From contig NC_014640.1 of NCBI RefSeq assembly GCF_000165835.1, positions 4,154,001 to 4,218,000 on the forward strand: 64,000 nucleotides of DNA, given 5' to 3'. Under the pieces are notes generated by a model. That model had not been told where the DNA came from, did no database searches, and was given only the letters and a program-made list of their open reading frames with translations. Within the stretch, counting starts at the first letter, position 1, and the number at the start of each line of letters is the position of its first letter. Shown here in pieces: positions 11,634 to 52,714 of this stretch. Source of the stretch: Achromobacter xylosoxidans A8. Its GTDB lineage: Bacteria > Pseudomonadota > Gammaproteobacteria > Burkholderiales > Burkholderiaceae_B. Position numbers and translations under genes: made by a program.

Positions 11634-11661
11634 GATTGCCTCCTGGATCCGTGAACCCGCC

Positions 11662-12492: not shown

Positions 12493-12526
12493 GTCTTCTC
12501 CAGATAGCGTTGGTATTGCCTGTCGG

Positions 12527-12949: not shown

Positions 12950-12962
12950 TGTCCGGCCCTCC

Positions 12963-13406: not shown

Positions 13407-13434
13407 CTGATCGCTCCTTGATAGGGCGTCCGCA

Positions 13435-14628: not shown

Positions 14629-14667
14629 GGAGTGCTCCTGAGTGATGGTGTTGGTACTGGACCCGCC

Positions 14668-15654
14668 TCAGACGGATATCCCCGCATCGGCCGCCACGCC
14701 AGAAAGCCGCGCACGAGCCGCCTCGTATTCCAGCCGCATGGAGGCCACGATGTCGCGCGTCGGCACGATGGCATCGATGCAGCCCACCCCCTGGCCGGCA
14801 GACCAGATATCGCGCCACAGTTTTCTGCGCGGCTCGCCCTGCGCCGCCAGGGTTTCGCGGTAGCTGTCGCGCGTGGGCAGCCGATCCGTATCCAGCCCCA
14901 GATCGGCGATGCTCTGCTTCAAGTAATTGGCGTGAACCCAGGAAAACAGGTCGCTATAGATGACGCCATCCGTACCCGCCTCCAGCACCGCCTGCTTGTA
15001 GGCTGGCTCGATGCTGGCCTCAGGACTGGCCAGGAAGCGCGTGCCCACATAGGCAAGGTCCGCGCCCATGGCGCGCACCGCCAGCACATGCTCTCCGGTG
15101 CTGATCGCCCCAGCCACGAGCAGCAGGCCATCGAACCAGCGCCGCACTTCGCCCACGAGGGCAAAGGGCGAAAGGTTGCCGCCATGGCCGCCTGCCCCGG
15201 CGCATACCAGGATGAGGCCGTCCACGCCCGCGGCTGCCGCCTTGCGCGCGTGGCGTTGGTTGATGACGTCGTGCAACACCACGCCGCCGTAGCCATGCAC
15301 GGCGCGCACCACGTCCTTGGGATCGCCGACCGACGTAATCACGATAGGCACGCGGCGCCGCACGCACGTTTCGAGATCGGCATGCTGCCGGTCGTTGGAG
15401 TGGTGCAGTATGATGTTTACGGCATAGGGGGCCGCCGGCGCCGAGGGATGCACCGAGTCATGCGCCACCAACGCCGTCTCGATGCGCGAGATCCATGCGT
15501 CGAGTTCTCCTGGTCCACGCGCATTCAATGCCGGGAACGAGCCCACGATGCCGGCTTGGCACTGGGCCAATACCAGATCGACGCCGCTGGCGATGAACAT
15601 GGGAGAAGCGACTACGGGCAGTCGCAGATTGCGTAACACGGAGAGCTTGGTCAT
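14668..15654 (-). CDS. Nitronate monooxygenase-like flavoprotein
   Basis: 328 residues from the ATG at 15654 (MTKLSVLRNLRLPVVASPMF). FMN-binding TIM barrel of the 2-nitropropane dioxygenase family: LPVVASPMFIASG at the N-terminus, VICAGAGGHGG-like LILVCAGAGGHGGNLS near the middle, then VAGAISTGEHVLAVRAMGADLAYVGTRF. Such proteins are often found in acyl-CoA clusters, with roles as nitronate oxidases or enoyl reductase relatives; here the role is unknown. It is the first gene of the minus operon and diverges from the LuxR-type regulator, with 98 bp between the starts. Confidence 0.85.
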   Translation of the reverse strand: MTKLSVLRNLRLPVVASPMFIASGVDLVLAQCQAGIVGSFPALNARGPGELDAWISRIETALVAHDSVHPSAPAAPYAVNIILHHSNDRQHADLETCVRRRVPIVITSVGDPKDVVRAVHGYGGVVLHDVINQRHARKAAAAGVDGLILVCAGAGGHGGNLSPFALVGEVRRWFDGLLLVAGAISTGEHVLAVRAMGADLAYVGTRFLASPEASIEPAYKQAVLEAGTDGVIYSDLFSWVHANYLKQSIADLGLDTDRLPTRDSYRETLAAQGEPRRKLWRDIWSAGQGVGCIDAIVPTRDIVASMRLEYEAARARLSGVAADAGISV

Positions 15655-15752
15655 GGAATGAACGAGTCGGGTGGTTCGTGCAGGAAGTAAAGCACCGGGA
15701 ACGCCCCAGGCATCCCACCCCGAAAGAGTAGGTCCCAGGATCGACGCGACCG

Positions 15753-39192: not shown

Positions 39193-40176
39193 ATGCTACG
39201 CATCACCCCCATCCTGTGCGCCGCGCTGACCGCGGTATCGCTTGCCGCCCCCGCGGCGGCCCAGGACTATCCCAGCCGTTCCATCACGGTCATCGTGCCC
39301 TTCGCGCCGGGCGGCACCAGCGATACGCTGGGCCGTCTGGTGGCAACTTCCCTGGCCAAGCAGCTGGGCCAGACCGTGGTGGTCGAGAACTCCGGCGGGG
39401 CCGGTGGCCTTATCGGCATGCAGAAGCTGCAAAAGAGTTCGCCTGACGGCTACACCCTGGCCTTCAACAACATGTCGCTGGCGATCCTGCCGCACCTGCA
39501 TCCCAAGGCCAATTACGATCCGCAAAAGGAACTGGCGCCCATCGGCATCGTCGCTACCGTGCCGATGGTGCTGTCGGTCAGCAACAAGAGCGGCATCCAG
39601 GACCTGCCCGCCATGCTCAAGCGCATCCGCGACACGAACGCCGTCAAGCTCAACCTGGGCTCCAGCGGTCCCGGCAGCACTGCGCATCTGGCAGAGGCCA
39701 TGTTCCTGCACTTCGCCAATGCGCGCGGCGAACTCATTCCCTATCGCGGCACGGGTCCCGCGTTGACCGACCTGATGAGCGGGATGATAGATGGCGTCAT
39801 CGACCAGACCGTGACCATGCTGCCCCTGCACCAGGACAAGCGCGTCAAGGCCATCGCCGTCACCGGATCCGCCCGTCTGGCGCAGAGTCCGGACATTCCC
39901 ACCTTTGCCGAGGGCGGCCTGCCCGAGTTCGACCTGGCGATCTGGAACGGCCTGGTCGCGCCCGCAGGCACTCCCCAGCCCGTCGTCGACAAGCTGTCCG
40001 CCGCCCTGTCCCAGGCCATCGACACGCCCGAGTTCAAGACGCGTCTGGAACAACTGGCGGCGCAGGCTCCGGCTACGCAAGAACGCGGTCCCCTTGCTTT
40101 CGCCGATCTGCTCAAGCGCGACTCGGAACGGGTGTCCTCGCTGGTCAAGAGCGCGAACTTGCTCGGCGCCAACTAA
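39193..40176 (+). CDS. Bug/TctC-family periplasmic solute-binding protein
   Basis: 327 residues from the ATG at 39193, chosen because AGGAGA lies 6 bp upstream; an ATG at 39175 lacks this. Signal peptide MLRITPILCAALTAVSLAAP, cleaved before QDYPSRS. Motifs SITVIVPFAPGGTSDTLGRL, VVVENSGGAGGLIGMQKLQKSSPDGYTL and VAPAGTPQPVVDKLSAAL. It closes the GntR-linked dehydrogenase unit and probably binds its hydroxy-dicarboxylate substrate. It ends 15 bp from the convergent comEC gene. Confidence 0.9.
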   Translation: MLRITPILCAALTAVSLAAPAAAQDYPSRSITVIVPFAPGGTSDTLGRLVATSLAKQLGQTVVVENSGGAGGLIGMQKLQKSSPDGYTLAFNNMSLAILPHLHPKANYDPQKELAPIGIVATVPMVLSVSNKSGIQDLPAMLKRIRDTNAVKLNLGSSGPGSTAHLAEAMFLHFANARGELIPYRGTGPALTDLMSGMIDGVIDQTVTMLPLHQDKRVKAIAVTGSARLAQSPDIPTFAEGGLPEFDLAIWNGLVAPAGTPQPVVDKLSAALSQAIDTPEFKTRLEQLAAQAPATQERGPLAFADLLKRDSERVSSLVKSANLLGAN

Positions 40177-40191
40177 GCGTCGCGGGCGGTC

Positions 40192-42600
40192 TCAGGGGCC
40201 ATGCCAGTACCGCCGCCCGCGCTCCCGCTCAGCCCAAACCTCCAGGCCCTCGGGACCTGAGCTCGCCATCACCGCGCCATCGCGGTCGCTGCGCCAGAAG
40301 GCGGCGCCGGCCCGTGTCCATCGCAGCTCCACCGCGCGAGCCGGATGGTGGAAGCGGTTCAAGTGTCCCGCCTGCGCGATCGCATGGCCGGCGGCCGCGG
40401 CGGCCACCAGGTCCCTGCCCGAGGACGACGCCGAGCCATGATGCGGCGCCATCACCACGTCGATGCGCGGCAAGTCCTGGACCAGCGCGCTTTCCTGCGC
40501 CACGCCCACGTCGCCCGTCAGCAACAGCGAATGTGACTTCCCCTGCACCAACAGCACGCAGCTATCGGCATTGCGGCCCTGCCCGCCCTTGCCGCCGGCA
40601 TCCACCGGATTCAGGAAGGTGAACGCCACGCTGTCCGCCTCCCAGCCCTGGCCGCGCCGGCAACGCCCCATGTCGTCAGGCAAGGGCGGTGCAATGCTGC
40701 CCGCGTCCGGCCACAACCCAATGTCGCGGCGCAGGAACGCGGCCACATCGAACGAGGCAAAGCCGCGTAATGCCGGAACCGCCGCCAGCACAGCGCGCAA
40801 GCCACCCACGTGATCCAGGTCGGCGTGCGACAGGACCAGCACGTCCAGCTGCCGGATACCGCGCGCCAACAGGAATGGCGCCACCACGCGCTCGCCCGCG
40901 TCGCTGCCGCCGTAGTGGCGTGGGCCCGCGTCGAACAGCAGGGTTTGGTTGGCGGTCTCCACCAGGATGGCGCTGCCCTGCCCCACGTCCATCGCGCTCA
41001 TGCGCCAATGGCCCGGCTCGGGCCGGTCGGGCCGCCAGAACAGCAGCGGCAGCATGCAGATCCACCCCAAATGCCTGCCCGGCCATCCGCGTACCTGCAA
41101 CGCCCATGCCATCCCAGCCACCGCCAGCAGCAGCCAGGGCCATGGCGCCGCCGCGACCGGCACGCTGGCCCAGGCGGCGTTGCCCACCCAGGACACGGGC
41201 GCCATGATCAGGTCGAACGCCAGCAAGCCCCATTGACCCGCGAACGCGGCCAGCGCCTGTGCGCCCGGCAGCACCGACAAGGCTGCGCACAGCAAGGCCA
41301 GCGGCGTCACGACGAAGGTCACGACGGGAATGGCCACCGCATTGGCCAGCGGCGAACCCAGCGACACCTGGTGCACCAGGAAGGCCAACAGCGGCGTCAG
41401 GCCTACGGTCACCATCAACTGCAAGCGCGTCGCCTGCGCCAATCTGGCCACGCAGCGCCGGCGCCAGCCGGCCTCGTGGTCCACCGGCGCATCCGCGATA
41501 CGCAACAGCACCGCCACCGCGCCGAACGACAGCCAGAATCCCGCCGACACCGGCGCCCAAGGATCCAGCGCCACCACCACAGCGGCGGCGCACGCCAGTA
41601 CCCGGCCGGCCGACAGCGGCAGGCGCGACACCGCCGCCGCCAGCACCACCGACAGCATGAAAAAAGTGCGCCGCGCCGGCACACCCCAACCGGCCAGCAG
41701 GCAGTACAGCAACGCGACCAACGCGGCCGCCGCCCCGCCCGCCACGCGCGCGGGCACGTGCTCGGCCAACCCCGCGCCGCGCCAACGTCCCCGCCGCCAC
41801 AGTGCCGCCACCAGCACCCCGGCGATGCCCGCTATCGAGGTCACGTGCATGCCGCTGATCGACACCAGATGCGTGATGCCGCTGCGGTTGAACAATCGCC
41901 AGTCGTCGCGCGCCACGCCGGCCTGATCGCCGATGGCCAGGGCGATCAACACCGGCGCGTAGCGATGCTCGCCCAGGGCCGCGCGCAAACCCTCCCGCAC
42001 CCGATGGCGCGCCCGCTCTATCGCGATGCCCGGTGTCGCCCAAGGCCGGTCCGCCAGCAGCCTGGGCTGCCCGCGCACCGTGCCCACCGCGCGTATCCCC
42101 TGCGCGAACATGCGCCCTTCCGCATCGGGCCCGGCGGGATTCAGCAGACCGTGGGGACGCCGCAGCACCAGCGCCATGCGCCAGACCTGGCCGGGCTTGA
42201 GTTCAGGTAGCGCGGCCTGCGGGCCGGGCGGCGCCTGCCAGCTGACCTGGATGCGCGACGGAATCCCTGGCGGCGCCGGCTCGTCCAGTTCGGCCAGAAA
42301 GCGCTGGCTGCGCGCATCGCCGTCCGGCAACTCCGCGACGCGCAGCGCCAGGCGCGACACGGCATCCTGGTGCGCATCCGACAGCCTATCGTCAAGCCTG
42401 GATTGCGCTTGCAGGCTGGCATTGAGCAGGCCCGCACATAGGCCCAGCGTCAGGGCCGCGAGCAAGCGCCCGGCGCGGTGCCGCAGCCGCATGCCGACGG
42501 CGGGCGCGAGCAGGCACGCCCCCGCCAACAACCATGTGGCCCCAGCTCCTGGAAGCCGGGGGCACAACTGGATCAATCCCGCGCCCGCCACGAACGCCAT
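40192..42600 (-). CDS. comEC: DNA internalisation protein ComEC/Rec2
   Basis: 802 residues, standard for ComEC. An N-terminal hydrophobic/OB region is followed by the competence membrane domain (SGITHLVSISGMHVTSIAGIAG at about 235-256, then many helices). The C-terminal metallo-beta-lactamase-like domain has AMDVGQGSAILVETANQTLLFDAG, VLSHADLDHVGGLRAVLA and VVMAPHHGSASSSGRD. It forms the inner-membrane channel for single-stranded DNA uptake. No other competence genes are near. The start at 42600 has no clear Shine-Dalgarno. Confidence 0.95.
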   Translation of the reverse strand: MAFVAGAGLIQLCPRLPGAGATWLLAGACLLAPAVGMRLRHRAGRLLAALTLGLCAGLLNASLQAQSRLDDRLSDAHQDAVSRLALRVAELPDGDARSQRFLAELDEPAPPGIPSRIQVSWQAPPGPQAALPELKPGQVWRMALVLRRPHGLLNPAGPDAEGRMFAQGIRAVGTVRGQPRLLADRPWATPGIAIERARHRVREGLRAALGEHRYAPVLIALAIGDQAGVARDDWRLFNRSGITHLVSISGMHVTSIAGIAGVLVAALWRRGRWRGAGLAEHVPARVAGGAAAALVALLYCLLAGWGVPARRTFFMLSVVLAAAVSRLPLSAGRVLACAAAVVVALDPWAPVSAGFWLSFGAVAVLLRIADAPVDHEAGWRRRCVARLAQATRLQLMVTVGLTPLLAFLVHQVSLGSPLANAVAIPVVTFVVTPLALLCAALSVLPGAQALAAFAGQWGLLAFDLIMAPVSWVGNAAWASVPVAAAPWPWLLLAVAGMAWALQVRGWPGRHLGWICMLPLLFWRPDRPEPGHWRMSAMDVGQGSAILVETANQTLLFDAGPRHYGGSDAGERVVAPFLLARGIRQLDVLVLSHADLDHVGGLRAVLAAVPALRGFASFDVAAFLRRDIGLWPDAGSIAPPLPDDMGRCRRGQGWEADSVAFTFLNPVDAGGKGGQGRNADSCVLLVQGKSHSLLLTGDVGVAQESALVQDLPRIDVVMAPHHGSASSSGRDLVAAAAAGHAIAQAGHLNRFHHPARAVELRWTRAGAAFWRSDRDGAVMASSGPEGLEVWAERERGRRYWHGP

Positions 42601-42686
42601 GCAGAAAATTCGGCCTGTGATGTGCGACTCCCGAAACGGGACAGCGTAGGCCGAGGCGCGGCGTTGCGGCGGATAGTGTGTATGTT

Positions 42687-42705
42687 TTCAGCCAGCTCGG
42701 CTGAA
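42687..42705. terminator. Hairpin between SDR gene end and comEC start
   Basis: TTCAGCC (42687-42693), loop AGCTC, GGCTGAA (42699-42705): perfect 7-bp stem in the 132-bp gap, 28 bp past the SDR stop. On the minus strand A residues follow, so it is a weak terminator candidate or part of the comEC leader. Confidence 0.35.
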
Positions 42706-42732
42706 CGCAGATCAGAAGCGCTGGCGCGCCTT

Positions 42733-43665
42733 CTAGCCCGCTGACGCGTTAGCCAGCTGTGCCGCGAACACGCTGGGCGGCAGACCATCGGCAACCTGCT
42801 TGAAGGACTTTTCCAGCATGGAAGACAATTGATCGAACTGCCAGGGACTCGAGGAACTGATCTGGCGTATCTCTTCCGGATTGCTGTACAGCCCCACATC
42901 GAAACCGCCAGCGGACAGCGTGCGGCCAGTCAGCCAGCTCGATCGTTCGCTGGCAAGATACAGCACGATGGGCGCGATATTCTCCGGCATGAGCGCGGCT
43001 ATTCCGGGACTGTCCACATCGCCCACCTTCTTGTCGCTGGGAATCGTGCCGGTCAACCGGGTCGCGGCCACCGGCGCAATGGCGTTCGCCGTAACTCCAT
43101 ATCGCGCCAATCCTTGCGCCAACGAATACGTCAGGCCCACCACCCCCATCTTGGCTGCGGCGTAGTTCGCTTGCCCGGGAGACCCTTGCAAGCCCGAAGC
43201 CGAGGTGAAGTTGATGATGCGATAGTTCCCGTTCGGGTTGCGCTGCTGGCGGAAATAGGCCGCCGCCGGCTGGACAGTGCTGAAATGCCCCTTCAGGTGT
43301 ACGCGGACGACGGCATCCCAATCCGCCTCGGTCATGTTGAAGATCATTCGATCGCGCAAGATGCCCGCAACGTTGACGACGATATCGAGCTTGCCGAATT
43401 TCGCCACCGCCGTCTCGACCAGCCGCCGCCCGGTTGCCACGTCGGCAATGTCACCGGCGTCGGCAACGGCGCTGCCTTTCAGATCGTTGATCTGCTCGGC
43501 GACGCGATGCACCGGGCCGTTGTCGCCGCCAGTGCCGTCCGGGCCGGTACCCAAATCGTTAATGACCAGATTCGCGCCCTCTCGCGCGAAGGCGAGCGCG
43601 ATGGCAGCGCCAATTCCCTGTCCTGCTCCCGTGATGATCGCGGTACGGCCTTTCAGGATACCCAT
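42733..43665 (-). CDS. MFE-2-like SDR (3-hydroxyacyl-CoA dehydrogenase type)
   Basis: 310 residues from the ATG at 43665 (GGAG upstream); a TTG at 43671 would add two residues. SDR motifs TGAGQGIG, NVAGILRDRMIFNMTEADWD, FTSASGLQGSPGQANYAAAKMG (catalytic Ser, Tyr, Lys). The stretch VINDLGTGPDGTGGDNGP and RVHLKGHFSTVQPAA match the dehydrogenase domain of peroxisomal multifunctional enzyme 2/HSD17B4. It is downstream of the acyl-CoA ligase, 3 bp away. It should oxidise a 3-hydroxyacyl-CoA of a branched or cyclic acid. Confidence 0.88.
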   Translation of the reverse strand: MGILKGRTAIITGAGQGIGAAIALAFAREGANLVINDLGTGPDGTGGDNGPVHRVAEQINDLKGSAVADAGDIADVATGRRLVETAVAKFGKLDIVVNVAGILRDRMIFNMTEADWDAVVRVHLKGHFSTVQPAAAYFRQQRNPNGNYRIINFTSASGLQGSPGQANYAAAKMGVVGLTYSLAQGLARYGVTANAIAPVAATRLTGTIPSDKKVGDVDSPGIAALMPENIAPIVLYLASERSSWLTGRTLSAGGFDVGLYSNPEEIRQISSSSPWQFDQLSSMLEKSFKQVADGLPPSVFAAQLANASAG

Positions 43666-43667
43666 GC

Positions 43668-45209
43668 TCAAATCTCCATTTTGGATGTGTTGTAACGATC
43701 TCTGAGAACATTCCTCTGCAGCTTCCCCGCTTCCGTGCGGGGTAGCTCATCAAGAAATTCATACCTGCCCGGGCACTTGTAGCCGGCCAGGGTTTCGGCC
43801 GCGTAGGCCCGGAGTTCTTGAACCAAGGCTGCCCGGTCGCTGCCTGCGTCGGCAGGCTGTATCACCGCCAGGACGCTCTGCCCCCATTCCGGGTCGCTGA
43901 CTCCAATGACCGCAACATCCTTCACCGATCCGTGGGTAATCAGGCGGCCTTCGATTTCAGCGGGATAAATGTTCACGCCACCCGACAGGATCAGATCGTT
44001 GCGGCGGTCGAGAATGAACAAGAAGCCATCCTCATCGATGGTGCCGATGTCGCCAGCGGTCGCGTAGCCATCGTCAAGACGGGACGACCGGGTCTTTTCT
44101 TCATCGTTGTGATAGGAATAATCGGTCATCGCGCTACGCGCATAGATCATGCCTACTTCGCCCGCGGGCAGTTCCTGCCCATTCTCATCGACGATCCTGA
44201 GCACCGTTCCAGGTGCGGCCCGGCCCACCGTTCCTGGCTTGCTCAGCCAGTCCTCCGGGCCCACCATCGAGTACATGCCAGCCTCGGTCGAACCGAGGTA
44301 TTCCCAGATTTTTGGCCCGAGCCATTTCATCATCTTGAACTTGACATCGATCGGGCAAGGCGCGCCGGCATGCACCACGCACTTCAAGCTCGAAACATCG
44401 TATTTCTTGCGGTTTTCCAGCCGCAGCAATCTGACAAAATGGGTCGGCACCATGTGCACGGTCGATACCCGATATTTTTCGATATCCCGCAATGCCAGTT
44501 CGGCATCGAACTTGTTGCGGCAAACTATCGTATGGCCGCGATGCAGGGACATCATCGCCCATGCGGCAGGCGCCGAATGATAGAGGGGCGAGAACACCAG
44601 GTGACAACCAGGGTCATGAGAAACGCCAAACAGATCGAGCGCGTCCGGGAGGTTGCCGATGACATCCTCGGGGCTCTTGTCCGCGAGCTTGCGCTTCACG
44701 CCCTTGGGCCTGCCGGTAGTCCCGGATGTGTAGCCCATCCACGAGCCCGCGCTGCGTTGATCGGGGACGCGGCTGTCCGCCTTCAATTCGTCGAATCCGC
44801 CCCATCCACGCTCTCCTCCCTCGATGCTGAAGCGCATCGCTGGCAATTCGGCGGAGGCAAGGCCGGGCGCGAACTCATTTGACGCGATCAGCATCTTTGA
44901 GTCGCTATCGCGCAAGATGTAGACGATCTCCTCGGCAGTGAGGTGCCAATTGATCGGCACCATGTACAGCCCGAGCTGCCCCGTGGCCAATGCAAGCTCG
45001 AAATAAGCTTGACAGTTCTTTAGAAGCACGGCGACCGCGTCACCCCTACGCAGACCTCGCGCGCGAAGTCCATTCGACAGTCTGTTGACCTCGTCCAGCA
45101 ACTTGCCAAAGGTCGTCGTCGTTCCGTCCGCCTCGATGTACGCAATGCGCTCGGGATGCCTGCTGGCGAGGCTGTAGAAACCTTTCGATTCGGGTCCTTT
45201 GCCGTGCAT
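43668..45209 (-). CDS. Acyl-CoA synthetase (AMP-binding family)
   Basis: 513 residues from the ATG at 45209, chosen because GGAGGA lies 6 bp upstream; the frame extends 15 codons further. AMP-binding motif MGYTSGTTGRPKGVKRKL, then LVFSPLYHSAPAAWAMM, YLGSTEAGMYS (A5-type), YATAGDIGTIDEDGFLFILDRRNDLILSGGVNIYPAEIE and C-terminal KCPGRYEFLDELPRTEAGKLQR with the catalytic Lys. It activates a carboxylic acid with ATP and CoA. A 25-bp dyad lies 64 bp upstream of the start. Confidence 0.92.
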   Translation of the reverse strand: MHGKGPESKGFYSLASRHPERIAYIEADGTTTTFGKLLDEVNRLSNGLRARGLRRGDAVAVLLKNCQAYFELALATGQLGLYMVPINWHLTAEEIVYILRDSDSKMLIASNEFAPGLASAELPAMRFSIEGGERGWGGFDELKADSRVPDQRSAGSWMGYTSGTTGRPKGVKRKLADKSPEDVIGNLPDALDLFGVSHDPGCHLVFSPLYHSAPAAWAMMSLHRGHTIVCRNKFDAELALRDIEKYRVSTVHMVPTHFVRLLRLENRKKYDVSSLKCVVHAGAPCPIDVKFKMMKWLGPKIWEYLGSTEAGMYSMVGPEDWLSKPGTVGRAAPGTVLRIVDENGQELPAGEVGMIYARSAMTDYSYHNDEEKTRSSRLDDGYATAGDIGTIDEDGFLFILDRRNDLILSGGVNIYPAEIEGRLITHGSVKDVAVIGVSDPEWGQSVLAVIQPADAGSDRAALVQELRAYAAETLAGYKCPGRYEFLDELPRTEAGKLQRNVLRDRYNTSKMEI

Positions 45210-45272
45210 GGGTCTTCCTCCAATGATTTGCTGTGCAAACTCGGTCTCTTTCATCCGGAATTTGGCGCTTTT

Positions 45273-45297
45273 TTTACGGACGTTTTTTGTCTGTAAA
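45273..45297. promoter_or_regulatory. Candidate TetR operator, site 1 (upstream of acyl-CoA ligase)
   Basis: TTTACGGAC, 7-bp spacer, GTCTGTAAA: an imperfect inverted repeat (8 of 9) 64 bp upstream of the ligase start codon in a T-rich stretch. The same element in reverse orientation occurs at 46397-46421, with one arm difference out of 18 bases. The TetR at 48125-48850 is the likeliest binder. Confidence 0.65.
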
Positions 45298-45412
45298 TAA
45301 TAATATTGCGGTTCTTTGAGGTCAAGCGGCTAGGCAAATTGTCCGGTTTCGAGAGACGGGCGAACGAGTTCGCACGCGAGCGGCGCGTTGCCTTGAGGAC
45401 GACATTGTGGCG

Positions 45413-45832
45413 TCAATAGGCCGCCACTACCGCCTCGCCAATCACCTTCTGCGCACCGTTCTGGTCCGCGCAGCCCAGGCTTAGCTTGACGAGCTTATCC
45501 CCCTGCGCGGTGGACTTTTCAATCACGCGCCCGACGCAATGAGGCTTGTCGCCCACGTTCGTAATTCCCGTAAATCTCACTGACATGCTGCGGATGTCTT
45601 CCTGCGGTACCAGCTTGGTCAGCAACCTTCCCAGATATGCGGCCGAAAGCATGCCGTGCGCGAATACGTCCTGCATTTTTGCCTTTCTGGCGAAATCGAT
45701 ATCCACATGAATCGGGTTATGGTCGCCGGATGCGCCGCAGTACAACGCCAAGGTGGTCCGGGTGATGGCCGGTATATCCGTCAGCGCGATCTCATCTCCG
45801 ACCGAGATGGCAGAAAAATCAATTCTTTGCAT
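45413..45832 (-). CDS. MaoC-like enoyl-CoA hydratase, catalytic subunit (second copy)
   Basis: 139 residues. Asp37 and His42 in YCGASGDHNPIHVDIDFAR are the hydratase-2 catalytic pair, and VFAHGMLSAAYLGRLL follows. It is nearly identical in this region to the protein at 12527-12949. AAGGAGAATACCC precedes the ATG. With the hot-dog protein encoded 11 bp upstream it should form a two-subunit hydratase. The divergent genes for a DUF35 protein and a thiolase-fold protein complete a set like ChsH1-ChsH2-Ltp2 of steroid side-chain degradation. Confidence 0.87.
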   Translation of the reverse strand: MQRIDFSAISVGDEIALTDIPAITRTTLALYCGASGDHNPIHVDIDFARKAKMQDVFAHGMLSAAYLGRLLTKLVPQEDIRSMSVRFTGITNVGDKPHCVGRVIEKSTAQGDKLVKLSLGCADQNGAQKVIGEAVVAAY

Positions 45833-45843
45833 GGGTATTCTCC

Positions 45844-46290
45844 TTATCCGTTTCTACGCTCGACGATTGTGCTGCGAAGCTGCGCCACCGCGTCCCCATT
45901 GACGTCGCTCACGGCAGTTTCCAAGACGACAAAATGAAGCTGGCCGTCTTTCTTGTCGTATACGTCGGCCACCTTGGTTTCAAACTGCAGGACGTCTCCG
46001 GCATAGGCCATTTTTTTATAGGTGAAAGCCTGCTCGGCATGCAGAACGCGCGCCAGATCGAGTTGCAAGCGCGACATGGTATTGCTGGAGGCCGCGGCCT
46101 CTCCATTTAGGCAAAACAGGAAGGTCGGCGGAATCGGAATACCTCTGTAGCCGGCGGCAAGCGCCGCGGACTCTTCAAAGTAGATCGGATTGTTCTCTCC
46201 GATTGCTTTTGAGAAAAATTTCAACCGCCCCATCTCCGCCGTCGCGGTTCCCCGCGACAGGATCGTCCCGATATCAGTCGGCTCAGCCAT
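45844..46290 (-). CDS. FAS1-like/MaoC N-terminal dehydratase domain protein (second copy)
   Basis: 148 residues. Hot-dog domain with GRLKFFSKAIGENNPIYFEE in place of a catalytic Asp-His motif, PIPPTFLFCLNGEA and VLHAEQAFTYKKM. Non-catalytic partner of the MaoC subunit downstream and paralogue of 12963-13406. First gene of a minus transcript whose start faces the DUF35 gene across a 205-bp region containing the candidate TetR site. Confidence 0.82.
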   Translation of the reverse strand: MAEPTDIGTILSRGTATAEMGRLKFFSKAIGENNPIYFEESAALAAGYRGIPIPPTFLFCLNGEAAASSNTMSRLQLDLARVLHAEQAFTYKKMAYAGDVLQFETKVADVYDKKDGQLHFVVLETAVSDVNGDAVAQLRSTIVERRNG

Positions 46291-46396
46291 AGCGCATCTC
46301 CGTGGAAAAAGTTTTCGCTCTGGTACGCGCGGACGCCGCAGACCGCCAATCCCCTGCCTTCAGGACTGTTGACACGCCCGTACGCCAGCACTATTA

Positions 46397-46421
46397 TTTT
46401 CAGACTTATTTCGTCCGTAAA
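46397..46421. promoter_or_regulatory. Candidate TetR operator, site 2 (divergent promoter region)
   Basis: TTTTCAGAC (46397-46405), 7-bp spacer, GTCCGTAAA (46413-46421). Read on the opposite strand it is TTTACGGAC-N7-GTCTGAAAA, matching site 1 at 17 of 18 arm positions. It sits 106 bp upstream of the MaoC-pair start and 74 bp upstream of the DUF35 gene, so one site could control both directions. Confidence 0.65.
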
Positions 46422-46495
46422 TCGTAGCACGGAAATTGCAGAGATCAATAGCAAGTCAACGCAACGCCATCGTCAATCAAACCGAAACGACATTC

Positions 46496-46894
46496 ATGAA
46501 GCCCATACCTACACCAGACACCCTTCCATACTGGAACGCGGCAAAACAAGGCCGGCTCGAAATTCAACATTGCAATGATTGCGGCCAGTTCTACTTCTAT
46601 CCGGGGATTTTCTGCCGGCATTGCCTTTCCGATCAGGTCCGGTGGAAGCAGGTTTCCGGAAAAGCAAAGTTGATCTCCTATGTGATCAACCACCGGCCCA
46701 TCCCGGGCAATGAGGGCGCATCACCCGTCATCGCCCTGGTCCAGCTGGCCGAAGGCCCTCGCATGATGACCAACATCGTGGGCATCGCGCCCACACCGGA
46801 AAACCTGGCATTGGACATGGACCTGATCGTCGACTTTGTGCAGCGCGATGGCATATCGCTGCCCGTGTTTCAGCCCGAGGGAATCAGCAAATGA
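46496..46894 (+). CDS. DUF35 (zinc ribbon plus OB-fold) protein, probable aldolase partner
   Basis: 132 residues from the ATG at 46496; no clear Shine-Dalgarno. Zinc ribbon with Cys26, Cys29, Cys40 and Cys43, then an OB-fold (KAKLISYVINHRPIPGNE, GPRMMTNIVGI). DUF35 proteins assist thiolase-superfamily aldolases and deacetylases; in ChsH2-Ltp2 the DUF35 domain docks the aldolase. Here the stop overlaps the start of the thiolase-fold gene (ATGA), consistent with complex formation. Confidence 0.88.
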   Translation: MKPIPTPDTLPYWNAAKQGRLEIQHCNDCGQFYFYPGIFCRHCLSDQVRWKQVSGKAKLISYVINHRPIPGNEGASPVIALVQLAEGPRMMTNIVGIAPTPENLALDMDLIVDFVQRDGISLPVFQPEGISK

Positions 46895-48054
46895 GCGAAA
46901 AAAACATGCATGGCGGCAACGTGGTCATCGTGGGCGCCGCCGAAACCGATGAGATTGGCATCGTTCCCTCCAAATCCGTGATCGCGCTTCACGCCGAAGC
47001 CGCCAGAAACGCCCTGCGCGACGCAGGCTTGTCACCCTCGGACGTAGACGGCATCGCCACCGCAGGACTGATGCCGATGGAGGTTACGCACTATTTGGGG
47101 ATCACCCCCAGATGGATCGATGGCACGATGGTCGGCGGATGCAGCTTCCTTTCCCATGTGCGACACGCCGCGGCCGCCATCGCTTCGGGCGCCGCGAACG
47201 TGGTCCTCATCACGCATGGCGAGTCCGGCCGTTCACGAGTCGGGGCGCCCGCCTGGACCATCAACGCGGCGGCAGCGGAAGGACAATTCGAAGCGCCATA
47301 CGGGGCCGTGGCGCCATACTCGACCTTTACCGTGCCCGCCTTGCGCTTCCTGCATGACCGCGGCATGGGGCCGCGGGATCTCGCGGAAGTCGTGGTCGCG
47401 CAGCGAAAATGGGCCAGCCGCAACTCCCGCGCCTTGCGCCGAGAAATCGTCACGGCCGATGAAGTGTTGTCCGCGCCTGTCATCGCTTACCCGTTCACGC
47501 GCGACATGTGTTGCGTCGTCACGGACGGCGGCGGCGCCCTGGTATTGACCAGCGCCGAGCGGGCCGCGAACCTGCCTTCGGCGGACCGCGCGGTCTTCTT
47601 GCTGGGCTCCGGCGAATCCGCCGAATCACGGCTGGTATCGCAAATGGAAGACGTCAGTTCGTTCCAGTCCTTCCGCCGATCTTCCAAAGAGGCGTTCGAA
47701 ACCAGCGGAATCAGCCATGACGATGTGGACCATCTGATGTGCTACGACGCGTTCGCGCACTTGCCGCTATACATGCTCGAAGATATCGGATTCGTGGGCA
47801 AAGGCGAGTCCGGCGCCTTCATTGCCGAGGGCAATACGCTGCCGTCCGGCAGGCTGCCCATGAATACCAATGGAGGGGGGCTCTGCTACACTCATACGGG
47901 CATGTACGGCATGTTTGCCATTCAGGAAGCAGTACGCCAGTTGCGAGGCAGCGCCGAAGCTCAGGTCCAAGACGCGCAGCTTAGTTTTGTACAGGGCGTG
48001 GGGCTGTTTTTTGCGGCATCGACCAGTCTGGTACTAGCCGCCAGCCGCCCCTGA
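46891..48054 (+). CDS. Thiolase-fold protein, probable acyl-CoA aldolase (Ltp2-like)
   Basis: 387 residues. Thiolase fold with Cys84 in MVGGCSFLSHVRHAAAAI at the nucleophile position and His335 in GGGLCYTHTGMYGMFAIQEA. There is no cysteine after residue 332, so the C-terminal proton-transfer Cys of true thiolases is missing (SFVQGVGLFFAASTSL ends the chain). This loss plus coupling to a DUF35 gene resembles Ltp2-type aldolases, which split 3-hydroxyacyl-CoAs by retro-aldol cleavage. A non-thiolytic role is inferred. Compare the complete thiolase at 13435-14628. Confidence 0.83.
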   Translation: MSEKNMHGGNVVIVGAAETDEIGIVPSKSVIALHAEAARNALRDAGLSPSDVDGIATAGLMPMEVTHYLGITPRWIDGTMVGGCSFLSHVRHAAAAIASGAANVVLITHGESGRSRVGAPAWTINAAAAEGQFEAPYGAVAPYSTFTVPALRFLHDRGMGPRDLAEVVVAQRKWASRNSRALRREIVTADEVLSAPVIAYPFTRDMCCVVTDGGGALVLTSAERAANLPSADRAVFLLGSGESAESRLVSQMEDVSSFQSFRRSSKEAFETSGISHDDVDHLMCYDAFAHLPLYMLEDIGFVGKGESGAFIAEGNTLPSGRLPMNTNGGGLCYTHTGMYGMFAIQEAVRQLRGSAEAQVQDAQLSFVQGVGLFFAASTSLVLAASRP

Positions 48055-48104
48055 TTCCCGTAAGCGGGTATACGCCTGGCATCTGAGCGGTAAGTCCCCC
48101 CGAA

Positions 48105-48131
48105 GGAGCATGCGCGATGGCGGCATGCTCC
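48105..48131 (+). terminator. Terminator hairpin after the thiolase-fold gene
   Basis: GGAGCATGC (48105-48113), 9-nt loop, GCATGCTCC (48123-48131), followed by GTTTTGCTTTA. Perfect 9-bp stem with a T-rich tail, 50 bp after the stop codon. It overlaps the first possible start codons of the TetR gene. Confidence 0.55.
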
Positions 48132-48850
48132 GTTTTGCTTTATGGCGCGCCTTGCTCGCCATCCGCTTCGTATCCGAGGGCAGAATTCTGAATCCGTCTA
48201 CACCTGGCCGCGGCCGTCCAATAGATCCTACGCTCGAACCCCGGGTCTTTGCCGCAACACTCACCCTCTATAAAGAGCTGGGCTGGGCCGGACTGACCAT
48301 CGATGGCGTTGCGCGTGCGGCGAAAGTCGGTAAAGCCGCGATCTACAAGCGCTGGCCCAACAAGGAAGCCTTGATTGCGGACACCTTGCAGGACATGTCC
48401 GCCCCATTTCCGGATTTCGGCAATACCGGATCCCTGCGCGGAGATCTGGTCCACCTGGCGGTCGCCATCCTGCGATTCTATGCGCAGGGCTACGGGCTCA
48501 TCGTCGCCCGGGTCCATATCGAGGCAAAGCTCTTTCCGGAAGTACTGGGCAGATCGCTGGCAGGCTGGGAACGCCATAGCCGGGAACACGGACGCAAGAT
48601 CATCCTGCAGGCGATGGCGCGCAATGAAATCCCGAAAGACGTCTCCCCTGCCCTGGTACTCGATCTGGTCGCCGGCGCGCTGCTGAATCACTTCCTGTAC
48701 ACCCCAGACGACAAAATGGAATTGCTTCAGAAAAACTGCGCGAGCTATGCCGAAACGGTGGTCGACTTCGTGCTGCGCGGCGTGGGCTACCAACCCATCC
48801 CGCCTGACAGCTCGCCGGCCACTCCGGCCCGGCCAGCCCGCGGCTCATAG
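48125..48850 (+). CDS. TetR-family transcriptional regulator
   Basis: 241 residues if the ATG at 48125 is used; an ATG at 48110 is also in frame, but both lie in the terminator hairpin. The conserved part starts later (GRGRPIDPTLEPRVFAATLTLY). HTH: LTIDGVARAAKVGKAAIYKRWPNKEALI. The C-terminal ligand-binding helices contain FYAQGYGLIVARVHIEA. The true start may be a non-ATG codon between 48150 and 48190. It is the only regulator of this module and is the likely repressor at the two 9-7-9 dyads. Confidence 0.88.
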   Translation: MLRFALWRALLAIRFVSEGRILNPSTPGRGRPIDPTLEPRVFAATLTLYKELGWAGLTIDGVARAAKVGKAAIYKRWPNKEALIADTLQDMSAPFPDFGNTGSLRGDLVHLAVAILRFYAQGYGLIVARVHIEAKLFPEVLGRSLAGWERHSREHGRKIILQAMARNEIPKDVSPALVLDLVAGALLNHFLYTPDDKMELLQKNCASYAETVVDFVLRGVGYQPIPPDSSPATPARPARGS

Positions 48851-48894
48851 GGCGACATTTCCTGTATTGTGTCGGTGCCCGGCAAGATGCTTCA

Positions 48895-48906
48895 CTCATT
48901 AATGAG
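48895..48906. promoter_or_regulatory. Palindrome in the benE leader
   Basis: CTCATTAATGAG, a perfect 12-bp palindrome ending 8 bp before the benE start codon, in the place of a ribosome-binding site. Could be an operator or translation control element. Confidence 0.35.
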
Positions 48907-48914
48907 ATAAGTCC

Positions 48915-50120
48915 ATGGCCCACCCAGACACGATTCCAGCCGCTCCATCGTCATTCCCGGCAACCGAGCTGACGAACGCTTTCGTCGCCTTCCTGTTCTC
49001 CGCGTCCGCGCCGGTGGCCATCATCCTGAGCGCGGGCGTGAAGGGAGGCCTCAGCCAGGCGACTCTGGCTTCGTGGATATTTGCCGCATTCGTGCTCAAC
49101 GGCATCCTCACCATCGTGATGTCCGCCATCTACCGGCAGCCGCTCGCCTTCCTCTGGACCATCCCCGGCGCGGTGCTGGTCGCCAGCGCCCTGCAACATC
49201 TGCCCTTTGCCGAGGTCATCGGCGCCTATCTGCTGACCGCCGCGCTGATGCTGGTGCTGGGATTGACGGGCTGGGTCGGCGCCATCATGGACCGCATCCC
49301 CATGCCCATCGTCATGGGCATGGTCGCCGGCGTCTTCCTCAGCTTCGCGCTGGACTGGATCAAGTCGTTCGCATCCGATCCCTGGCTCGCGGGCGTCATG
49401 ACCGCCACCTTCTTCCTGGTCTCGGTCTTCCCTGCCGTGCAAAAGCGGCTATCGCCCATTATCGGCGCGCTGATCGCGGGAATAGGCGTGCTGATGTTCA
49501 TGGGACGAGCGCCACAGCTGGAACACGTGACGCTGGCGACCTCGGTGGCCAGCCCGCAGTTCTACGCGCCGGTATTCTCCTGGGCCGCGGCATTCGAGCT
49601 GGTGCTGCCTCTTGCGGTGACCGTGATCGCGGTGCAGAACGCGCAAGGGATTGCCGTGCTGAGGAATTCGCTGCATCGGCCGCCGGTCAATGCGATCACC
49701 AACGCCTGCGGCGTGTTCTCGGCGCTGACCGCCTGCCTGGGCTGCGTCTCGACCTGTCTGGCCGGTCCATCGAACGCCATCATCGCCTCCGGCGCCGACG
49801 CGTCGCGGCACTGGCTGGCCGCGATCTTCCTGGGCGTGATGGTGATCGTGTTCGGCCTGTTTTCGCCGCTGGTCACGCAGGCGCTGCTGGCCACGCCCGC
49901 CGCCTTCGTGGCCACGCTGGCGGGGCTGGCGCTCCTGCGCATCCTGCAAGGCGCGTTCCATACCGCTTTCCGCCAGCACTTCACGCTGGGCGCCCTGGTC
50001 GCCTTCCTGGTGACCCTGGGCGGCCTGCCCCTGCTTGGCATCGGCGCGCCGTTCTGGGGCGTGGTGTTCGGCGTGGCGACCAGCTTCATCCTGGAGCGCG
50101 CGGATTTTTCGAAGACCTGA
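48915..50120 (+). CDS. benE: Benzoate/H+ symporter, BenE family
   Basis: 401 residues with about 11-12 hydrophobic segments. BenE features: FVAFLFSASAPVAIILSAGVKGGLSQ, IYRQPLAFLWTIPGAVLVASAL, PMPIVMGMVAGVFLSFALDW and NAITNACGVFSALTACLGC. Inner-membrane importer for benzoate-type aromatic acids. No benzoate catabolic gene is adjacent; the ring-hydroxylating dioxygenase at 60935-64000 is 11 kb away, so a link is possible but not shown. The start lacks a strong Shine-Dalgarno. Confidence 0.92.
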   Translation: MAHPDTIPAAPSSFPATELTNAFVAFLFSASAPVAIILSAGVKGGLSQATLASWIFAAFVLNGILTIVMSAIYRQPLAFLWTIPGAVLVASALQHLPFAEVIGAYLLTAALMLVLGLTGWVGAIMDRIPMPIVMGMVAGVFLSFALDWIKSFASDPWLAGVMTATFFLVSVFPAVQKRLSPIIGALIAGIGVLMFMGRAPQLEHVTLATSVASPQFYAPVFSWAAAFELVLPLAVTVIAVQNAQGIAVLRNSLHRPPVNAITNACGVFSALTACLGCVSTCLAGPSNAIIASGADASRHWLAAIFLGVMVIVFGLFSPLVTQALLATPAAFVATLAGLALLRILQGAFHTAFRQHFTLGALVAFLVTLGGLPLLGIGAPFWGVVFGVATSFILERADFSKT

Positions 50121-50156: not shown

Positions 50157-51743
50157 TCAAGAAACCGGAGGCGGTTGTGCTGCTTTGCCAAAACAGCCAA
50201 TCGCATTGCCTCCAAAGAGCGATTCAGGATTTATGAAATCTCTCGTCGCTCGCAAGATTTCCGACGGATACCGGGCCCATGCGCGCTCTTGAGAGAGCAT
50301 GTGCCAATCGCTGCCATACATGAGTCTGGCATTCAGCACTGCATGAGTTTCGAAGATCCTCTTCAATTGATCGCGCGCGATGCAACTCTCCAACTTTCCA
50401 CATCTCAGATTTTCCCAGTAACCCGTATCGCCATAGAGGTTCTTCCCCGCGCCAGCCTCCATCAGTGCGGCAAACCCGGCTGACCAGCCCTCAAGATCGT
50501 CTCCCCCAAAGTGGCCGATGTTCACACGGGGCGAGTCCAGTTTCATCAGCGCTTGCGTCCATCCCTGCGGGCTTGCGTACTCGTCATGCAGGTCATCCAA
50601 CCCCATTGTTGATGCGCCGTGAGCCATCACCGGTACGTCCAGACGCTGGGCAATGTTCCACATCGCCGTCAGCTCACGTTCCAGGGCTGCGCCCGAGGGT
50701 ATCCCCGGGCGCATCGGGTGAACGTCAGGGTTTACAAGCGGCCTGAATCCGTTCGGCGGGTAAATCTTGATGCCGACAAACCCCCGCCTTTCTATCGCGT
50801 CGGCCACCCGCAAGCGCACCCGCTTGGGGTCCAGCACCGCACTCCAGGGGTTGTACGCAACCAAGGGGCGCATGTATCCATTCGACAGCACTGAAAGCAA
50901 CTGATGCAGCGCTATCTGGCTCTCTTGCGATGAAAGGGCTGCGGGAGCCAGCCAATAATCAAAGTCGACCAAGGAAGCAAACACGCGGTCCACCCCGAAA
51001 GCCTGGTCACCGGTGGTGAACGACTGCTGGTACGCGAGCAGGTTCATCCATCGATAAGACAGCATGTATCCCACAAAACCCACAACACCTTCGCGATATG
51101 CTCCACCTCCCTGGGCCGCGCCATCGCTCATGGGTTCTACCAGTCCTCCGGTCTCGGTGGCTTGAAAAACCATTGCCATCGTGTCCGGTCCCAAGTTTCC
51201 GTCCACCCCTCCCTGTGTAAAGCTCGCTGGCGCCGCATCGTTGTAGATCGTCTCAAATTCGGTTCCTCGTACCACCTCGAAGAAGAAGGCTGACTGTCTT
51301 TTCAAGAACTCTGCTCGCCGCTGGTGCAGGACAGTTTCGCTTGCCTCTGGCGGCAGGCCCATTACCGCATGGTTGCGGGCCATCCCGACAAGCTCTTTGA
51401 TTTCTTCATCGGCGGTCGGCGCCAGGGATGCAATCCGGCCGGCAAGTGGGGCCAATGCCCTAATCAGCGTCCTGGATACTCCGGACCTGCTATGCGCAAC
51501 CGGTCCCGCCAGGAATCCTTCCACCGGCACATCGCTGGCATTAAAGAAGTGCGCGTGGGTATCGACCACCCAAGCCGGAGCGCCCTCGGCCTTCCGCCCA
51601 GGACGCGGTGTCAGGATAGGGCTGAGGCCCTCGGGCGGAGCGCTGCCTTGAGCGTTTTCCGAAGCTCGGCGCGGCCATCGGCACCCCCCAACAAAGGGCA
51701 GCGCGGCGAGCGCGCTCAAGAGTTCGCGACGCCGGGGTTTCAT
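50157..51743 (-). CDS. Amidohydrolase-family putative lipoprotein with RR leader
   Basis: 528 residues. Leader MKPRRRELLSALAALPFVGGC has a twin Arg and a lipobox-like VGGC (Cys21), suggesting Tat-exported lipoprotein. The core contains VVDTHAHFFNASDVP (metal His pair), GFVGIKIYPPNGFRP, DVPVMAHGAST, RVNIGHFGGDDLEGW and ARLMYGSDWHML, an amidohydrolase-2-type barrel. Its start overlaps the stop of the metallophosphatase-like gene by 4 bp. It is the last gene of a three-gene cassette that is more A/T-rich than the window. Substrate unknown. Confidence 0.78.
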   Translation of the reverse strand: MKPRRRELLSALAALPFVGGCRWPRRASENAQGSAPPEGLSPILTPRPGRKAEGAPAWVVDTHAHFFNASDVPVEGFLAGPVAHSRSGVSRTLIRALAPLAGRIASLAPTADEEIKELVGMARNHAVMGLPPEASETVLHQRRAEFLKRQSAFFFEVVRGTEFETIYNDAAPASFTQGGVDGNLGPDTMAMVFQATETGGLVEPMSDGAAQGGGAYREGVVGFVGYMLSYRWMNLLAYQQSFTTGDQAFGVDRVFASLVDFDYWLAPAALSSQESQIALHQLLSVLSNGYMRPLVAYNPWSAVLDPKRVRLRVADAIERRGFVGIKIYPPNGFRPLVNPDVHPMRPGIPSGAALERELTAMWNIAQRLDVPVMAHGASTMGLDDLHDEYASPQGWTQALMKLDSPRVNIGHFGGDDLEGWSAGFAALMEAGAGKNLYGDTGYWENLRCGKLESCIARDQLKRIFETHAVLNARLMYGSDWHMLSQERAWARYPSEILRATRDFINPESLFGGNAIGCFGKAAQPPPVS

Positions 51744-52714
51744 ACAGGGAGCCAGCTCGCGCGGCTTAGTTTGCGCGAATGGCGCGGCTCAGGCTGGTTC
51801 TCCGCGAAAAAAGAAAATGAAACGTGCGTCTCGTCGATATCGACGAGACCATAGTTCCTGTACGTCTCTCCTACCGTCACGGCGTATTTCACTGCCGCGC
51901 CCGATGAGGTCGCCTCATGCAGGGGCCAACCCGTGGTGAAAAAAGCATCGGACTCGTTACGGTGGATATCGCCGCTGAGCACCAGGATCTTGCTGATGGC
52001 TGCCCGACCAAGCAGCCACTCCCAGTCACCGGCATACCCAACCTTGTAATCAGCACAGGTGGAGCCACTGGCGAAGAGGTGAATGGCATCAGGTGCGCGC
52101 TCCATAGCAGCGTCGAAGCCGGCTCTTTGTCGGGCGCCCAATATCGTGCGCGCGTCGTCTGGAATCAGCCAGGTTCCCGTACGCCAGCTACGCACATCGG
52201 CAAGATGCAACATCACGTCATTCGACAGCTTGATACTTGGCGATTCCAGAGGCGGCTGATTCTCCTTCCAAAGGGACGGAGCATTGTAGGCATTGGGAAA
52301 TGAGCCCGCCGCCATGCCTTTTTTCAGAGTCCTACGAAACGCCTCATGCAGGGCAGTGCTGATACGCAGTTTCGGCGCCTGAGCGGGGCTTTCCCTGGCA
52401 ACCGCTCCCAGGACATCATTCCATAGGCAGTCGTGATCGTCCCAAGTCGTCCAGACACGACCTGTTGGCAACGACTTCACAAGTCTTGAGAACTGCGCCT
52501 GCTGAAGCAGCTCGCTGTACCGAGAAAACGCATGCTTGGCAAAGTCGTCCACGCCCATATCTTTTGGATGCCCTGCTTCCTCGACATGTATGTCCAGGTA
52601 CATGCTGTCACCGAGCAAGATCAGATGATCTGGCGCTTGCGCCCTGATCCAGTCCCAAACGGGTTGGTCATTGAATACATTGGTGGCGATGCAGGACGCA
52701 AATGCGATGCGCAT
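51740..52714 (-). CDS. PhoD-like metallophosphoesterase
   Basis: 324 residues without signal peptide. Metal motifs of the PhoD type: IAFASCIATNVFNDQPVWDW, HLILLGDSMYLDIHVEE, RVWTTWDDHDCLWND and KILVLSGDIHRNESDAFF. It is shorter than secreted alkaline phosphatase D (about 550), so it is a compact cytoplasmic relative whose substrate is unknown. Middle gene of the cassette: 10 bp from the DUF2272 gene and overlapping the amidohydrolase gene. Confidence 0.85.
   Translation of the reverse strand: MRIAFASCIATNVFNDQPVWDWIRAQAPDHLILLGDSMYLDIHVEEAGHPKDMGVDDFAKHAFSRYSELLQQAQFSRLVKSLPTGRVWTTWDDHDCLWNDVLGAVARESPAQAPKLRISTALHEAFRRTLKKGMAAGSFPNAYNAPSLWKENQPPLESPSIKLSNDVMLHLADVRSWRTGTWLIPDDARTILGARQRAGFDAAMERAPDAIHLFASGSTCADYKVGYAGDWEWLLGRAAISKILVLSGDIHRNESDAFFTTGWPLHEATSSGAAVKYAVTVGETYRNYGLVDIDETHVSFSFFAENQPEPRHSRKLSRASWLPV

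Follow-up and report, generated by a model that had tools for sequence, protein, structure and literature searches.

In Achromobacter xylosoxidans A8, a 64,000-nucleotide stretch of contig NC_014640.1 (positions 4,154,001 to 4,218,000 of the forward strand; hereafter the window) carries a 6.2-kb gene cassette that includes a thiolase-fold protein, for which an earlier note made from the sequence alone had suggested a role in retro-aldol cleavage. The cassette comprises a minus-strand run of MaoC1, MaoC2, an AMP-forming acyl-coenzyme A (acyl-CoA) ligase and a short-chain dehydrogenase/reductase (SDR), and a plus-strand run of DUF35, thiolase-fold and TetR genes (Table 1). The earlier description of a split MaoC hydratase facing a DUF35 gene that overlaps a thiolase-fold gene was borne out by matches to PF01575, PF13452, PF12172/PF01796 and PF22691, and by the 4 bp (46891-46894) shared by the latter two genes. 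Similarly, the stop of the ligase gene is overlapped by the start of the SDR gene. The DUF35 open reading frame as listed begins at TTG 46436 and would encode 152 amino acids.

Table 1. Positions of the cassette, its genes and its putative control elements in the window
Feature	Position	Strand	Basis or remark
Whole cassette (SDR, ligase, MaoC pair, DUF35, thiolase-fold gene, TetR)	42652..48851		6.2-kb unit, ends from comparison with congener G616
SDR, like the (3R)-hydroxyacyl-CoA dehydrogenase of multifunctional enzyme type 2 (MFE-2)	42733..43671	-	PF00106/PF13561
AMP-forming acyl-CoA ligase	43668..45254	-	PF00501 + PF13193
Palindromic box 1 (TTTACAGAC-N7-GTCCGTAAA)	45273..45297	.	likely TetR operator of the ligase-SDR promoter
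Promoter-like TTGACC-17-TATTAT before ligase, adjoining box 1	45297..45325	-	10/12 consensus matches
MaoC2, HadB-like hydratase subunit, Asp37/His42	45413..45832	-	PF01575; nearest solved structures HadB-type
MaoC1, HadA-like partner subunit, Tyr37 replacing the catalytic His	45844..46290	-	PF13452 + PF22622
Promoter-like TTGACA-17-TATTAT before DUF35, adjoining box 2	46369..46397	+	11/12 consensus matches, consensus scan only
Palindromic box 2 (TTTTCAGAC-N7-GTCCGTAAA)	46397..46421	.	likely TetR operator of the divergent promoter
DUF35 protein, stand-alone, 132 amino acids from ATG 46496	46496..46894	+	PF12172 zinc ribbon + PF01796 OB fold
Thiolase-fold lyase, predicted retro-aldolase, Gly83, Tyr285-Asp-Ala-Phe, His335	46891..48054	+	PF22691
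TetR-family regulator, presumed binder of boxes 1 and 2	48110..48850	+	PF00440 + PF16859

MaoC2 carries the motif GDHNPIH, with an Asp/His dyad, whereas MaoC1 reads GENNPIY, with Tyr in place of His, so that a catalytic-type subunit is combined with a noncatalytic-type one. With the dyad in one subunit and none in the other, the pair is predicted to form a heteromeric hydratase of the HadAB or ChsH1-ChsH2 type. The HadA/HadB-like assignment was made from matches that fell below NCBI's cut-offs; the solved structures nearest to MaoC1 include HadA, and PF22622 is the N-terminal domain of the MFE-2 hydratase-2. The best solved structure for the DUF35 protein was ChsH2(DUF35) (6ok1_B), followed by 9myr_B. 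The ligase matched feruloyl-CoA synthetase best (8weu and 8wev, 225 and 224 bits), structures too general for its substrate to be named from them. The SDR matched 2et6 best (279 bits; runner-up, 219 bits), whose entry name is (3R)-hydroxyacyl-CoA dehydrogenase and which we take to be an MFE-2, and the MFE-2 entries 1zbq, 1gz6 and 3oml stood further down the list at 160-165 bits. On these matches, the SDR appears closest to the (3R)-hydroxyacyl-CoA dehydrogenase of MFE-2.

Alignment of the thiolase-fold protein with thiolases and characterized aldolases placed the nucleophilic Cys of the thiolase CA(S/T)G motif on Gly83, in the same column as Gly89 of the Comamonas testosteroni aldolase Sal (CtSal). 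Tyr285 occupies the position of the His or Asn that opens the thiolase HDCF/NEAF motif, and the C-terminal CxG position reads QGVG, without Cys. The His335 column holds the GHP His in thiolases, the acid Tyr344 in Thermomonospora curvata Ltp2 (TcLtp2) and Gln352 in CtSal. A database search scored 8000 candidates, all of which passed; Gly83, Tyr285 (in YDAF) and His335 were unchanged in the best 120 of these, the A. xylosoxidans protein included, as well as in all 83 related loci. Position 84, however, was occupied by Cys in 42, Ser in 32, Thr in 5 and Gly in 4 of the 83 loci, and by Cys in 110 and Gly in 10 of the 120 database proteins. A pairwise HMMER alignment to 7yvy gave a contrary register, setting Cys84 on the thiolase Cys by means of one-residue insertions on each side; we preferred the Gly83 register because of the multiple alignment and the CtSal Gly89 numbering. 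Cys84 was rejected as the catalytic nucleophile on this register and on the Ser, Thr and Gly replacements in relatives. The earlier note had stated that the protein keeps Cys84 and His335 and lacks the C-terminal Cys; the latter two observations stood, but the nucleophile column is that of Gly83, not of Cys84.

In the available portion of the Sal study (PMC12329534), replacement of the nucleophilic Cys by Gly is given as the reason why CtSal is incapable of thiolysis, and in the published model it is the amide of Gly89 that contacts the beta-hydroxyl. Removal of the beta-hydroxyl proton has been proposed as the role of a Tyr (Tyr294 in Ltp2, Tyr302 in Sal), and mutation of this Tyr abolished activity. 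We propose from the alignment that the present family combines the aldolase base with an acid of its own. Our literature searches retrieved no description of a catalytic Tyr/His pair of this kind, nothing bearing on the clade of the protein beyond the Sal paper, and no paper on the function of 4U4E, its closest solved structure.

The phylogeny against Ltp2, Sal and SCP-x, which the earlier note had named as a check, placed the protein outside the true thiolases, whose rows formed one group (100/99). It fell inside a 30-row clade (100/98) that does not include Ltp2 and grouped with 4u4e (100/99), separately from both Ltp2 and Sal. With respect to motifs, it keeps the Tyr of the Ltp2 YDHF but reads YDAF, and it has Ala287 at the place of the catalytic Cys304 in the Sal YDCY. 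Thus, of the supposed likeness to ChsH1/ChsH2/Ltp2, the preference for an aldolase over a thiolase was supported by the tree, Gly83, Tyr285 and the motif shared with the ibuprofen-pathway protein IpfD, while membership in the Ltp2 or Sal group was not.

Related loci were collected from one genome scan as the best 80 of 201 stretches, comprising 38 closest and 42 more distant ones, and their genes were counted by bit-score thresholds within at most 10 kb on each side, several contigs stopping early. A DUF35 gene was present in 79 of the 80 (38/38 close and 41/42 distant loci) and lay immediately upstream on the same strand in 77 (36/38 and 41/42). The protein is therefore likely to pair with DUF35, and on gene order it would share the DUF35 partner of the thiolase-fold retro-aldolases. 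As the DUF35 protein of the cassette stands alone, it would provide no tether to the hydratase.

Among known systems, Ltp2-ChsH2(DUF35) of T. curvata (PDB 6OK1) has the same fold, a DUF35 partner, the Tyr of YDxF and Gly at the nucleophile place; its hydratase likewise joins an active and an inactive MaoC subunit, as described for ChsH1/ChsH2 in the accessible part of PMC11321319. Ltp2 differs in its acid (Tyr344 versus His335), its motif (YDHF versus YDAF) and its separate clade, and ChsH2 has DUF35 fused to MaoC. The bile acid aldolase Shy-Sal(DUF35) of C. testosteroni (PDB 9MYR) shares the fold, DUF35 and the Tyr302 and Gly89 equivalents, but it has the catalytic Cys304 versus Ala287 and Gln352 versus His335, and Shy is one fused MaoC-DUF35 protein, unlike the separate genes of the cassette. 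In Comamonas TA441, aldolase activity needs DUF35, and separately expressed MaoC and DUF35 pieces gave both activities, according to the available text of PMC12502768. IpfD acts with IpfE in the removal of the acyl-CoA group during ibuprofen degradation (PMC6063337, in the part available), a step that the accessible text of PMC9195938 names a retro-aldolase reaction and also attributes to an "ipfDE-encoded thiolase". Identified by gene position on plasmid pIBU218 rather than by a locus-tag table, IpfD has YDAF, Gly at the nucleophile place and, alongside, a separate PF01796 OB-fold partner, with a ligase in the cluster. It is distant in sequence, however, and has Tyr at the place of His335; no zinc-ribbon match was obtained for IpfE, unlike for the cassette DUF35 protein; and the beta-hydroxyl of the ibuprofen pathway is supplied by a dioxygenase, whereas a hydratase is proposed for the cassette. 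4U4E, a putative thiolase of Sphaerobacter thermophilus (46% identity), belongs to the same clade and has NTNGGGLSYTH and the Tyr, differing in YDSF and in Ser at position 84. BbsB also combines the thiolase fold with a DUF35 subunit; it has HDAF and GHP, in a fragment without the nucleophile region, and falls inside the thiolase group of the tree.

The gene content of the relatives bears on the pathway. Among the 38 close loci, a hydratase was found in 26 (25 of the fused type, exemplified by L018 with PF22622 and PF01575), an SDR in 27 and both in 20, whereas the corresponding counts in the 42 distant loci were 24, 22 and 18. A ligase or CoA-transferase occurred in 28 close loci, a TetR relative of at least 100 bits in 9, and a cytochrome P450 with an aldehyde dehydrogenase in 10. 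In these last 10, no acyl-CoA dehydrogenase match to the probe reached 340 bits, which suggests that the acid is unsaturated from the start. The P450 of L021 was nearest to CYP268A2, CYP125MRCA and CYP124; a literature search linking terpene, P450, thiolase and OB-fold yielded nothing relevant. By entry name, 35 of the 38 closest loci are actinobacterial, 2 are from sphingomonads and 1 is from a Chloroflexota bin, so that the cluster, described earlier as proteobacterial, is so in its host but not in its closest relatives. Plasmid pISP0 of Sphingomonas sp. MM-1 (L110), typed as conjugative, has a complete-looking P450-to-lyase operon whose lyase is 69% identical to ours; the run begins with ferredoxin, alcohol dehydrogenase, P450, two MaoC and CoA transferase genes and continues with aldehyde dehydrogenase, SDR, OB-fold, thiolase and TonB receptor genes.

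From family membership and alignment we infer the reaction, the substrate and any complex of these proteins as follows. The cassette, TetR-controlled and probably acquired from outside, would degrade an alpha,beta-unsaturated acid, probably branched or cyclic (isoprenoid-like). The ligase would form the enoyl-CoA, the HadA/HadB-like MaoC pair would hydrate it to the 3-hydroxyacyl-CoA, and the DUF35-associated thiolase-fold protein would split the latter in a retro-aldol reaction into a shorter acyl-CoA and an aldehyde or ketone. Tyr285 would remove the beta-hydroxyl proton, as proposed for Ltp2 Tyr294 and Sal Tyr302; His335, at the place of the Ltp2 acid Tyr344, may protonate the enolate; and the backbone amide of Gly83 would stand where thiolases hold the nucleophilic Cys. 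The role left to the SDR would be an oxidation that runs in parallel or follows. That the thiolase-fold protein is a retro-aldolase with a Tyr/His pair, working in a TetR-controlled catabolic cassette, is in our judgment the probable reading, favored by the residue evidence and by the precedents of Ltp2, Sal and IpfD/IpfE.

Several observations weigh against it. The SDR at 42733-43671, which the earlier note had left out although it lies in the same minus-strand run, is of MFE-2 type and belongs to the same operon, and a 3-hydroxyacyl-CoA dehydrogenase would feed an enzyme that cleaves 3-oxoacyl-CoA rather than an aldolase. SDRs of at least 200 bits recur in 27/38 close and 22/42 distant loci, and those of at least 350 bits in 22/38 and 0/42; this recurrence is not explained by retro-aldol cleavage. 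The SDR could oxidize some of the hydroxyacyl-CoA for a thiolase elsewhere, could use the resulting ketone or alcohol, or could indicate that the lyase really acts on a 3-oxoacyl-CoA, which it would cleave without Cys. The distance from the lyase to a fused-type hydratase was at most 3 kb in only 21/38 close and 8/42 distant loci, and all of the hydratase and SDR counts are raw presence with no background frequency set against them. The acids of the known aldolases are not kept, Ltp2 Tyr344 being replaced by His335 and Sal Cys304 by Ala287, and IpfD is placed uncertainly by the tree, with a long branch and an open fork. There is no aldehyde dehydrogenase within the cassette. Finally, the P450 of L012 matches CYP105-type enzymes, which leaves the isoprenoid substrate resting on one P450 subfamily.

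A rival reading is a split MFE-2-type beta-oxidation, in which hydratase and SDR would produce the 3-oxoacyl-CoA and the thiolase-fold protein would cleave it by a noncovalent retro-Claisen reaction, CoA or water attacking. Peroxisomal MFE-2 works paired with SCP-x, and the cassette likewise sets a type-2 hydratase and a (3R)-hydroxyacyl-CoA dehydrogenase beside a thiolase-fold enzyme. The match of the SDR to 2et6, that of MaoC1 to PF22622, the fused hydratase of relatives such as L018, the joint occurrence of hydratase and SDR in 20/38 and 18/42 loci, the identity of His335 with the thiolase GHP His, and the fact that the SDR and thiolase-fold genes are the most constrained of the cassette all speak for it. 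The cassette genes are separate, though, unlike those of MFE-2, and SCP-x is a Cys-dependent thiolase, whereas our protein has neither Cys. We know of no noncovalent thiolase. Given this missing nucleophile, and Tyr285 in place of the thiolase His, a Tyr found essential there in two characterized aldolases (PMC12329534, available part), we regard this pathway as unlikely. Less credible still is another kind of DUF35-associated enzyme, such as a PhlABC-like C-acylase or an enzyme that decarboxylates or condenses in the direction of synthesis. PhlC and the archaeal thiolase/3-hydroxy-3-methylglutaryl-CoA (HMG-CoA) synthase complex do have the same fold (Foldseek) and, in the accessible text of PMC12329534, DUF35 partners, but the neighbors are catabolic (ligase, hydratase and dehydrogenase, with P450 and aldehyde dehydrogenase in some relatives) and the Cys is missing. 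An ordinary Ltp2- or Sal-type steroid side-chain aldolase is the most improbable of all: it is already contradicted by the grouping with 4u4e apart from Ltp2 and Sal, and the acid residue differs. Among the first-look candidates scored (12/33 and 13/29), no relative of Sal or Ltp2 was found at E 1e-60 in this genome, no steroid genes were recognized in the cassette, and on the tree and this search such membership was rejected.

The two promoter regions share TATTATTTnCAGAC-N6-CGTCCGTAAA, with 24/30 positions identical, and in both of them the 25-bp box begins with the last base of the -10-like hexamer. The promoter-like sites are weak on their own, four having been found in the scanned stretch versus 2.1 expected. 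With at most three mismatches, the palindrome gave four rows in the window (two places, both strands) versus 0.02 expected; as the pattern was built from these two places, their recovery is no independent test. A relaxed pattern occurred at two places in the whole 7.36-Mb genome, both in the cassette, compared with one for the reversed control; among 125 loci it was found only in the window itself (L001). A repeat search within each intergenic stretch missed the box, which emerged when the two promoters were compared with each other. In congener G614 the ligase promoter has the box as TTTACAGAC-N7-GTCTGTAAA, and the counterpart of box 2 has one substitution relative to the relaxed pattern. Independent support for the boxes is thus their position and their conservation in G614. 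The TetR protein is predicted to bind both, and the claim that the ligase belongs to the same regulon, made earlier without evidence, now finds support in boxes at both promoters that are kept in G614.

The history of the cassette was examined at its site in 2 of 12 other congeners. In G616 it is absent: the competence-protein gene (40192-42600, PF03772) and the BenE-like gene are neighbors, and DNA similarity to the window covers 40000-42651 and resumes at 48852-50114, with 82 bp between in G616. G614 carries the whole cassette with both boxes and the same flanking genes in the same order. Identities to G614 were 94% for the SDR, 83% for the ligase, 85 and 82% for the MaoC pair, 84% for DUF35, 93% for the lyase and 79% for TetR; a further lyase relative, labelled Achromobacter sp., is 97% identical. 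DNA identity was 84% in the cassette versus 87 and 91% in the flanks, so both strains probably inherited it from a common ancestor, and the absence in G616 may reflect loss or never having had it. The ratio of nonsynonymous to synonymous substitution rates relative to G614 was 0.067 for the lyase, 0.072 for the SDR, 0.155-0.220 for DUF35, the MaoC pair and the ligase, and 0.302 for TetR. The seven genes are under purifying selection, which, together with the DUF35 gene in 79 of the 80 related loci, speaks for more than a chance assembly.

The G+C content is 0.55-0.64 at 43-49 kb versus 0.67-0.72 at 36-43 kb; it is also low (0.56-0.61) at 50-54 kb. Of the 151 genomes in the family sample, four passed E 1e-130, namely this genome and three at 55-56% identity; none of the six congeners listed there, which do not include G614 and G616, did so. 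Low G+C content, rarity and actinobacterial relatives together suggest acquisition from outside, from which we infer an origin by transfer. Most relatives, however, have a fused hydratase in place of the HadA/HadB pair, and the best MaoC1 match outside the cassette in a 321-genome sample of the betaproteobacterial class was again in this genome (59%); the cassette may thus combine genes from two sources. A related MaoC pair in Cupriavidus adjoins an acyl-CoA dehydrogenase and a ligase, and in view of such company no single source for the pair was found. Next after TetR on the same strand lies a BenE-like benzoate transporter gene (window 48915-50120), which we consider a neighbor and not a cassette member because it adjoins the competence-protein gene in G616. 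The low-G+C genes at 50157-52714, without match beside BenE in G616, may form another variable segment, and in G614 (L145:2254-8049) the space from TetR to BenE holds genes for a B3/4-domain protein, an MFS transporter, a TonB receptor and FecR.

The same genome has 18 further matches to the thiolase-fold protein (L092-L109), a large group of aldolase-like paralogues among them: 13 have YDx(F/Y) and lack the thiolase Cys, 4 have the thiolase signature, keeping Cys-Ala at the nucleophile, H-D-x-x and GHP, and 1 (L106) reads YAPC. A DUF35 match of at least 30 bits within the fetched stretch accompanied 11 of the 13 Tyr-type paralogues, none of the 4 Cys-type ones, and also L106; the contrast of the Tyr-type with the Cys-type group speaks for the retro-aldolase reading. 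A second acyl-CoA cluster on the minus strand (window 10536-15783) contains a CoA-transferase, an SDR, a HadB/HadA-like pair, an SCP2-type thiolase and a nitronate monooxygenase-like gene. The HadA of this second cluster shares 59% identity with the cassette MaoC1, and the thiolase carries NCATG, HDCF and GHP; unlike in the cassette, hydratase and dehydrogenase would there feed a true thiolase. In other genomes of the order, the groups L114-L118 have Gly instead of the nucleophile, retain a His at the place of His335 and read YDCF; the Sal-type Cys stands here together with the kept His, a combination not met in the aldolase literature examined.

It is possible, and we advance it tentatively, that such proteins constitute a widespread third catalytic design among thiolase-fold retro-aldolases, with Tyr as base, His as acid and Gly for the nucleophile. 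They would act in MFE-2-like cassettes, together with ligase, type-2 hydratase and dehydrogenase, to degrade branched unsaturated acids of an isoprenoid-like kind in actinobacteria and, after transfer, also in proteobacteria. Where named, the best 120 of the 8000 database proteins are called thiolase, thiolase C-terminal domain protein or acetyl-CoA acetyltransferase, and a large protein family would be renamed by its chemistry if the retro-aldolase reading is true. The Tyr/His pair together with Gly for the nucleophile would then offer a simple sequence test dividing likely aldolases from thiolases, and the cassette of A. xylosoxidans would represent a small regulated unit in which to study hydratase-aldolase coupling with a stand-alone DUF35 protein, apparently outside steroid metabolism.

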